A DNA stretch of 35,177 nucleotides from Candidatus Magasanikiibacteriota bacterium (GTDB lineage Bacteria; Patescibacteriota; Patescibacteriia; Magasanikbacterales; UBA922), in assembly GCA_018650645.1 (NCBI GenBank), contig JABIFP010000015.1:1-35177 (forward strand), written 5' to 3'. The position numbers and the translations under genes were made by a program. Below, one piece after another: positions 5,159-7,340 of this stretch. Every line of letters starts with the position of its first letter. The first letter of the stretch is position 1. The notes under the pieces are model-generated. The model had not been told where the DNA came from. It did no database searches and saw nothing but the letters and a program-made list of their open reading frames with translations.

Positions 5159-5812
5159 ATGCAAAGATTTAGATTCATTTTATCACTCGCTCTTATACTC
5201 TCGATTGGGTTTTCCATATTTACGCCCCTCCCCACTCAGGCAGAGAAAGACAAATATGGGATGGAAACGGACCCAAACCATCCAAACTATCCTGATGACA
5301 CATTTTTAACTGAAGAGGCAAAGGACTATCTAAACAATCTAGACAATGAATCTCCACTTGGTGACAATCTAGGCCCAGGGATAATTGGAGACAACTGCGA
5401 CAAAACCTTCAGTAACAAATTGCGTTGTAATATACAAAATACAATTGACGATATTTCACGCATGCCCCAAGAATATAAAATCATGTTCTTTATACTATTA
5501 TTCGCTGTTTTATATACGATTCTTGGAGCAAAAAAACTATCCGTCAAGAATATAAATCGCATAAATAAGGTGCTCGCAATTGTTTCTCTTGTTCTTATGC
5601 TTCTATATCTAGGTGACGGGGAAAAAAGAAAAAAGCTATTACGATATTTTCATATTTTCCTTTTACTGATCCCATCTATTCCTATCATCACCCTATTGGC
5701 AGATAAAATGAGGATTCATAATGTGTACGTAAAAACTTTCCTCGGCGCATGCATGATGATTTTTATTCCAATACTCATAATTGTTGTCCTCTTACCAGCG
5801 GTTTATACATAA
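5159..5812 (+). CDS. Hypothetical membrane protein with N-terminal signal sequence
   Basis: N-terminal hydrophobic segment then several TM stretches (IMFFILLFAVLYTILGA, VLAIVSLVLMLLYLG, IFLLLIPSIPIITLLA, FLGACMMIFIPILIIVVLLPA). Confidence 0.75.
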   Translation: MQRFRFILSLALILSIGFSIFTPLPTQAEKDKYGMETDPNHPNYPDDTFLTEEAKDYLNNLDNESPLGDNLGPGIIGDNCDKTFSNKLRCNIQNTIDDISRMPQEYKIMFFILLFAVLYTILGAKKLSVKNINRINKVLAIVSLVLMLLYLGDGEKRKKLLRYFHIFLLLIPSIPIITLLADKMRIHNVYVKTFLGACMMIFIPILIIVVLLPAVYT

Positions 5813-5877
5813 ATAACGTTCGAATGGCGTTCCATTAGTCCCGCAAAAATTACTTCGCTATATATTAAAAAATCATT

Positions 5878-6342
5878 ATGCATACAAATTGCCTCGCCTG
5901 TGAAAGAATCAAAATGATAAAACAAGGATCCAATCCTTATTTTGTTATGGAACTAGATTCTGGATATGTTGTCCTTGGAGATCATCAGCTATTTAAAGGA
6001 TACTCACTACTGCTTCTTAAAAATCATACTGAAGAGCTCCATATGCTCACCGATGCAGATCGAAAAATATTTCTAGAAGATATGAGTCTTCTCGGAAAAG
6101 CTCTCTATGAAATATATTCTCCAAGAAAGATGAACTATGAGCTCCTTGGAAATTCCGTTAATCATCTCCACTGGCATATTTTTCCAAGACACCATGATGA
6201 CCCTCGCCCGCAAGGAGCTGTTTGGGCTATTGATAAATCTATTCGATATGCTGATAAGTACATACCAAGCCCAGCAGAATTAGATGAAATGAAAAAATCA
6301 CTAAAAACAAAATTAGCTCAACTCATTTTGGAAAACAGTTAA
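5878..6342 (+). CDS. HIT-family nucleotide-binding protein
   Basis: Histidine triad NHLHWHIFPRH; typical N-terminal CLAC...YFVMELDSGYVVLGDHQLFKGYSLL. Confidence 0.9.
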   Translation: MHTNCLACERIKMIKQGSNPYFVMELDSGYVVLGDHQLFKGYSLLLLKNHTEELHMLTDADRKIFLEDMSLLGKALYEIYSPRKMNYELLGNSVNHLHWHIFPRHHDDPRPQGAVWAIDKSIRYADKYIPSPAELDEMKKSLKTKLAQLILENS

Positions 6343-6432
6343 TCTATAGAAAAAAGTTCGAATAGCGTCCCATCGGTCCCGCAAACATATAAAGTCAGCC
6401 TGAAAAGGGTGCTTTTATGTTTGCGGCATAAC

Positions 6433-6466
6433 AAAAAAACATCACCCTCTACAGGTGATGTTTTTT
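6433..6466. terminator. Bidirectional intrinsic terminator
   Basis: AAAAAACATCACC-ctctaca-GGTGATGTTTTTT. Confidence 0.75.
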
Positions 6467-6562
6467 CTAGCTCTCACGTTTACGATTGTACACATGAAAG
6501 CTAGTGAAGAGACGCGGTGGCAGGTGCCATGCGCCTCTTCGGGGTGGACTACAGATGAGATT

Positions 6563-7153
6563 TCAGCGGCTGAGCTGCCAGACCCAGGCGGGCCAGCGCT
6601 CAGCCGTGACGTCCCAAACATTGCGGACCTCGCCACCCACCGCGACGCTGAGCGTACCGGTGAGGTTGACGGCGGTCCCCGCGATCCGCTCGACTGTCCC
6701 CTCCTCCGATATCTCGGCGAGGCCGGTCCGGTTGAGGGGGTACACGGGACTCTCGTCCTGCGTGTAGCCGGTGAGGCGGAAATCGCACCCATCGAGCTCA
6801 GCAAAGCGCTGACCCGAGAACACGATCCCCATGCTCAGCTTGAGCGGGTCCTCGCCGAGGCGGTGGGGGCCCTGCAGATCGAAGGTCTGCTCGTAGTAGG
6901 CGATCTGATCGCCCAGCTTGCAGATCCCCTCGATCTGGTAGTTTCGAACCTCCGTCGTAGGAACCCGCTCGTCGAGCGAGATCTGCTCCCACTCCGCCCC
7001 GGGCTCGTCGAGCCGGGTAAAGTGGCCGTCCGCGTCCCACGTCACCTGAACGATGACGAAGTCCGCGTCGGCCTCATCAAGAGCGGGGTTGGGCAGGTCG
7101 CCGCAGGCGGCGAGGAACAGGGCGGTGATGGTGGCGAGCAGAATGCGAGCCAT
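6563..7153 (-). CDS. GC-rich putative lipoprotein of unknown function
   Basis: MARILLATITALFLAACGDLPNPALDEADADFVIVQ... with lipobox LAAC. SD GGGAG 7 nt before ATG. Start placed at 7153 rather than 7213. Confidence 0.75.
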   Translation of the reverse strand: MARILLATITALFLAACGDLPNPALDEADADFVIVQVTWDADGHFTRLDEPGAEWEQISLDERVPTTEVRNYQIEGICKLGDQIAYYEQTFDLQGPHRLGEDPLKLSMGIVFSGQRFAELDGCDFRLTGYTQDESPVYPLNRTGLAEISEEGTVERIAGTAVNLTGTLSVAVGGEVRNVWDVTAERWPAWVWQLSR

Positions 7154-7171
7154 AAGAATTCTCCCTTCAAA

Positions 7172-7198
7172 GAAAAAACGCCACGTTTGACATGTGGC
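7172..7198 (-). terminator. Intrinsic terminator in the 5' leader of the lipoprotein gene
   Basis: Minus: GCCACATGTCAAACGTGGC-GTTTTTTC immediately upstream of the SD. Confidence 0.7.
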
Positions 7199-7305
7199 AG
7201 GAAAAGGAATCATTCGGCTTTCTACAAAACCAAACCATTCCTTTCCCCACCATATCTGTAGTCACTGTAATGATCATCTTACCTGCCACAATTGGGAAAT
7301 AAGAA
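7172..7305 (-). promoter_or_regulatory. Structured leader, riboswitch/attenuator-like
   Basis: TGTGGCAGG (7290-7282) is perfectly complementary to CCTGCCACA (7201-7193), which includes the 5' arm of the terminator. An inner 8-bp stem AAAGGAAT/ATTCCTTT (7244-7237 / 7210-7203) abuts it. Confidence 0.55.
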
Positions 7306-7311
7306 CTATGC

Positions 7312-7340
7312 ACTATATCACAAAAACAGGCTTTTGTCAA
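7312..7340 (-). promoter_or_regulatory. Sigma70-type promoter TTGACA-17-TATAGT
   Basis: Minus: TTGACA (7340-7335), 17-nt spacer, TATAGT (7317-7312). Confidence 0.75.

Follow-up and report, generated by a model that had tools for sequence, protein, structure and literature searches.

The locus studied here raises the question of whether the long RNA leader that precedes a GC-rich lipoprotein gene acts as a sensory switch, or whether it serves the expression of this gene in another manner. The gene lies in a stretch of 35,177 nucleotides from a Candidatus Magasanikiibacteriota bacterium, which was analysed as a whole and is called the window hereafter. A previous sequence-only reading had described the leader as an aptamer combined with a mutually exclusive terminator and antiterminator. 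The elements concerned, all on the minus strand, are the following:

7312..7340 (-): extended promoter TTGACAAAAgcctgTTTTTGTGaTATAgT, TTGACA-17-TATAGT (from sequence)
7306 (-): G7306 (GTT), likely +1, inferred from the conserved GTT
7154..7306 (-): structured leader RNA, 153 nt, GC 0.41 (folding against dinucleotide shuffles)
7282..7290 (-): TGTGGCAGG, 5' strand of the antiterminator first proposed (from sequence)
7201-7193 (-): CCTGCCACA, perfect 9-nt complement of TGTGGCAGG (from sequence)
7195..7252 (-): main hairpin, 26 bp, interrupted (MFE and centroid)
7252-7237/7210-7195 (-): lower stem of the main hairpin, 16 bp (MFE and centroid)
7236/7211 (-): 1x1 mismatch of the main hairpin (MFE and centroid)
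7235-7226/7221-7212 (-): apical stem of the main hairpin, 10 bp, GUAG loop (MFE and centroid)
7244-7237/7210-7203 (-): 8-bp stem AAAGGAAT/ATTCCTTT (from sequence)
7173..7198 (-): weak terminator-like hairpin GCCACATGTCAAACGTGGCGTTTTTT, GCCAC-9 nt-GTGGC-G-TTTTTT (from sequence)
7161..7165 (-): Shine-Dalgarno site GGGAG (sequence and fold)
7153 (-): ATG start codon of the lipoprotein gene (from sequence)
6563..7153 (-): orphan gene, 196 aa, GC 0.66, GC3 0.86, predicted lipoprotein (composition; lipobox by eye)
6440..6562 (-): structured 3' UTR of the lipoprotein gene (z -8.44)
6540-6506 and 6504-6467 (-): long hairpins of the 3' UTR (folding)
6460-6440 (-): terminator of the 3' UTR, a hairpin followed by a T-run (folding)

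Predicted structure of the leader

The promoter, TGTGGCAGG with its perfect 9-nt complement, the Shine-Dalgarno (SD) site and the ATG are all present where they had been placed, and the view of a promoter followed by a long structured leader upstream of the GC-rich lipoprotein gene is supported by folding. Indeed, the leader has a minimum free energy (MFE) of -55.8 kcal/mol, whereas 200 dinucleotide shuffles gave -35.6 ± 3.6 kcal/mol, none being as stable, and with a z of -5.60 its structure is far beyond chance. The 9-nt complement alone is marginal, because 4.5% of the shuffled leaders have one. The 8-bp stem described between the two segments exists, but it is really part of the 26-bp hairpin at 7252-7195, which had been missed and whose lower 5' arm (7252-7245) takes up CCTGCCA, a segment previously assigned to the antiterminator. 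In the transcript prefixes folded, from 95 to 152 nt in steps of 3, CCTGCCA is held by the 26-bp hairpin once transcribed, and the 7290-7282/7201-7193 helix is absent from every prefix as well as from the full-length MFE structure. Forcing this pairing gives a fold 5.7 kcal/mol worse than the MFE, so that the antiterminator is not supported. Most nucleotides in the 5' arm of the weak terminator are already paired within this same hairpin. The sequence of the terminator is indeed there, but its stem has only 5 bp and its loop 9 nt, the fold that includes it lies 2.9 kcal/mol above the MFE, and a terminator scan with a loop limit of 8 listed none at 7198-7173; this U-run hairpin is probably incidental. 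In the full-length MFE structure, the GGGAG site is paired with UUUCCC at the 5' end of the leader.

These results bear on the riboswitch or attenuator, in which a ligand or a factor would stabilise the 7290-7282/7201-7193 pairing, block the terminator and let transcription continue. Both pairings do use the 5' arm of the terminator, and a perfect 9-nt complement is found in only a few percent of shuffles, but the 26-bp hairpin is favoured by the above 5.7 kcal/mol and is the first of the two to appear in the folded prefixes, and the terminator has only 5 bp. Besides, no Rfam family matched the leader at its gathering score, and nothing exceeded any family cut-off when permissive thresholds were also used; most sub-threshold matches were to microRNA-type models of generic hairpins, and SAM-SAH scored 11 bits for a cut-off of 40. 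No homologue of the leader was detected among the 86 genomes of the order searched. The predicted folding, made from this single leader sequence, thus argues against the terminator switch, which is not supported, and a riboswitch or attenuator appears very unlikely at this locus. Leader-peptide attenuation through a 36-codon frame at 7277-7167 was not favoured either, since a frame of such length is common by chance according to a rough estimate from base composition.

The lipoprotein gene and its surroundings

The lipoprotein assignment was made by eye from an N-terminal lipobox. The protein has no Pfam family, and no homologue was found in 145 relatives, GTDB contigs, plasmids or viral contigs. 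Its GC3 of 0.86 compares with 0.26-0.36 for the other genes of the window. In the vicinity, a 39-nt imperfect direct repeat (82%), at 5812-5850 and 6350-6388 on the plus strand, flanks a HIT-domain gene (5878-6342); no further copy of this repeat occurs in the 544 kb of the window's genome examined.

A class of promoter-hairpin leaders

When relatives were searched with the leader, almost only the promoter was matched, often with a hairpin leader and then a GC-rich ORF behind it. A class pattern, TTGACAAAA-N5-TTTTTGTGnTATAnT-N5-GTT, was taken from the window's own promoter, which has 0 mismatches to this extended pattern with GTT at +1. With at most one mismatch, the pattern was found in 67 of the 145 relatives, and it gave 0 matches on the reversed control. 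The exact pattern retrieved 60 stretches from 85,462 genomes (one per GTDB species), 59 of which are apparently from Patescibacteria, mostly Magasanikbacteria or Uhrbacteria, as judged from record titles that name Magasanikbacteria, Uhrbacteria, Parcubacteria, Patescibacteria or only 'bacterium'; the remaining one is a Lentisphaerae bin. An operator had also been considered in the ACAAAA/TTTTGT spacer of the promoter, and was dropped because the same promoter drives ordinary genes too.

Among the promoter sites with a usable ORF, 103 of 138 precede GC-rich ORFs. SD sites are present in 88% of these 103 sites versus 34% of the rest, and the median leader z is -4.1 versus -1.5, starts and leaders having been set in both groups by a heuristic giving preference to SD sites, on data that are mostly fragments of metagenome-assembled genomes. 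The 86 leaders of at least 70 nt upstream of GC-rich genes have a median main hairpin of 21 bp, where shuffles have one of 10 bp. Terminator-like hairpins occur in 10% of class leaders versus 4% in shuffles and are therefore no general feature of the class. The leader sequences differ from gene to gene, and such diversity, seen at the level of sequence comparison, is unlike a ligand-binding aptamer; together with the scarcity of terminators, it is a further point against a switch. With its 26-bp hairpin broken by one 1x1 mismatch, its z of -5.6 (class threshold z < -3), its GGGAG site and the GC3 of 0.86 of its gene (threshold at least 0.57), the window leader appears to belong to a numerous set of similar hairpin leaders in Magasanikbacteria and Uhrbacteria. 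No description of this class was found in the open-access literature library.

A covariance model of hairpin group A (R1) recovered its own members and L130, and did not find the window leader. Within the group-A hairpin, a nested GC-rich inverted repeat is common to L104 and L138, two leaders of the same genome (G071), with 97% identity over 146 nt; this repeat looks like a mobile palindromic element.

Covariation, modularity and age

In three homologous leader groups of other class members, both sides had changed with the pair kept at 4 of 22, 9 of 40 and 9 of 25 pairs; these counts are small because the groups hold 4, 3 and 5 sequences, whose relatedness was uncontrolled. The genome's own C13 leader and L161, from another family, are 72% identical over 153 nt, and their proteins 31% over 97 aa; as this pair shows, conservation in the class can be stronger for the leader than for the protein. 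Leaders L132 and L133 are 87% identical over 149 nt and their proteins have no match to each other, so that leaders appear modular. One hairpin type is common to L104, L106 and L109.

Similar leaders before different genes, as in these two cases, would also be expected if the hairpin acted as DNA, that is, as a recombination or mobile-element site shuffling promoter-leader modules and ORFs, with no role as RNA. Compensatory changes would preserve a fold of single-stranded DNA equally well. However, long hairpins go with GC-rich genes and are weaker in native genes behind the same promoter, and k-mer and pairwise searches revealed no common core site except boxA and one hairpin subfamily. A DNA site of this kind is consequently regarded as quite unlikely.

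Another explanation is that leader and gene are recent foreign DNA, with a structure devoid of function, as a GC-rich orphan gene in an AT-rich genome might suggest. Against it, the AT content of the leader is normal, its promoter is of the lineage's own type, its structure exceeds chance by a wide margin, and hairpins covary in other class members. Moreover, in ten homologous class pairs, 4-fold sites are only 21-68% identical while their GC is 0.58-1.00 in both members, not every one of the ten pairs being saturated at these sites. Such a pattern, derived from sequence comparison, would hardly be expected from recent import alone, and the idea that all GC-rich genes were recently imported was rejected on this ground; for the present locus, recent foreign DNA with a structure devoid of function seems decidedly improbable. 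Repeated exchange from GC-rich relatives is a possible source of the GC-rich class genes. That Patescibacteria exchange genes horizontally is, in general, amply documented (PMC12455944).

boxA, NusB and Rho

In an unbiased search, the top k-mers of GC-rich leaders tile GTTCTTTACAATT, which is close to TGCTCATTACAATT in the rRNA leader of the window's genome, and the 8-mers of GTTCTTTACAATT are about 20-47-fold above genome background in class leaders. Cores of the boxA type are present in 24 of 86 class leaders, compared with 5% in shuffles and 6% in the regions upstream of native genes. In E. coli, the boxA of rrn leaders and of the suhB 5' UTR binds NusB/S10 (PMC5725501). The NusB gene is present in the window's genome (G000:C32:12440-12820), about 140 bp apart from that of RNase III.

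From this, a Nus-type leader could be envisaged, in which boxA and hairpin would modify RNA polymerase in the manner of rRNA leaders and ease its passage through a GC-rich structured transcript. The enrichment of boxA, the highest of any motif in class leaders, and the presence of NusB in the genome are in its favour. Yet the best boxA match of the window leader has 4 mismatches out of 14, which is ordinary for shuffles, and boxA is therefore not claimed for this leader. Besides, a Rho RNA-binding domain was not found in the genome with the one model searched, hence protection from Rho is not an obvious purpose here. For the window leader, a Nus-type function is thus considered unlikely.

Two gene modes in the genome

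In 544 kb of the window's genome, ORFs split into two GC3 modes separated by a valley at about 0.45-0.5. SD sites precede 60% of ORFs in the GC-rich mode versus 10% in the other, as determined with a start rule separate from the class heuristic. The codon preferences of GC-rich ORFs reverse the native ones for most amino acids. Around GC-rich genes, mean GC climbs at the start codon and drops within about 80 nt past the stop, and the upstream and downstream flanks are more structured than those of native genes, the difference being moderate upstream (median z -1.7 versus -0.7). A Pfam scan of 30 GC-rich proteins gave matches at cut-off for 7, weak matches only for 2 and none for 21.

About 44 GC-rich islands, mostly of one ORF each, were counted in these ~544 kb (G000 contigs C5, C16, C17, C20 and others), i.e., roughly 80 per genome if the 544 kb are representative. 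No GC island was seen in 400 kb of G027, a single-contig relative (GC 0.32); hence not every member of the family has this GC-rich gene class. One contig of the window's genome (C30) has a GC of 0.316, the other contigs examined being at about 0.42-0.45. In the same 544 kb, the 9-mer AAATCGATT, which contains the palindrome AATCGATT, occurs 57 times for 6.6 expected from trinucleotides and could be a methylation or uptake-type site. TTTAGCG was rejected as an uptake-type signal, as it is not over-represented in the genome (61 for 54.5 expected).

Proposed role and comparison with known systems

We consider, with a probability of about 0.5, that the window leader is a non-sensory expression leader, one example of a class of Magasanikbacteria and Uhrbacteria. 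The unit of this class is a GC-rich, mostly single-gene transcription unit behind a stereotyped strong promoter. Its leader, of about 100-250 nt, carries a hairpin of about 20-30 bp broken by single mismatches, followed by an SD site, a GC-rich ORF and a structured 3' end. The hairpin may be kept for its double-stranded shape, for protection of the 5' end and/or for cutting by RNase III, roles suggested only by hairpin shape and gene presence. After a cut by RNase III, a short leader with the SD site would remain and allow constitutive translation. Where other members have a boxA, NusB/S10 is probably loaded on it, as happens in the rRNA leader; in the window leader this element is absent or degenerate.

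The class resembles the boxA leaders of rRNA operons in its strong promoter, its long stems, the NusB and RNase III genes of the genome and, in part of the class only, a boxA near the 5' end. Unlike them, class leaders precede single GC-rich protein genes, the window leader has no convincing boxA, and the Rho RNA-binding domain was not found in the genome. Stabilising 5' hairpins and mRNA leaders processed by RNase III are known from the ompA leader, the early mRNA sites of phage T7 and the N leader of phage lambda. The window leader shares with these a long interrupted hairpin upstream of the SD site, whereas here a lineage-wide class, similar in shape and differing in sequence, is tied to GC-rich genes, and processing is a prediction. 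With riboswitches and terminator attenuators (Rfam cis-regulatory families), the window leader has in common its length, competing pairings and a U-run hairpin; it differs from them by the lack of a conserved aptamer or of an Rfam match at cut-off, by a disfavoured alternative fold and by a weak terminator.

Thus, a one-off riboswitch claim is replaced by a testable leader class in Magasanikbacteria and Uhrbacteria, which ties one promoter type and a similar hairpin shape to GC-rich genes, mostly of unknown function. A bolder idea, which we find doubtful, is that these AT-rich bacteria hold a second gene set, a long-maintained shared pool with reversed codon preferences, SD starts, a dedicated promoter-hairpin leader and expression rules of its own. 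If true, this pool may be adapted to a translational setting of another kind, namely that of a host cell, of a GC-rich relative or of a different ribosome state. The two gene modes, distinguished by GC3 and SD use, bear on how accessory, often secreted, proteins are acquired, retained and expressed in ultra-small bacteria.
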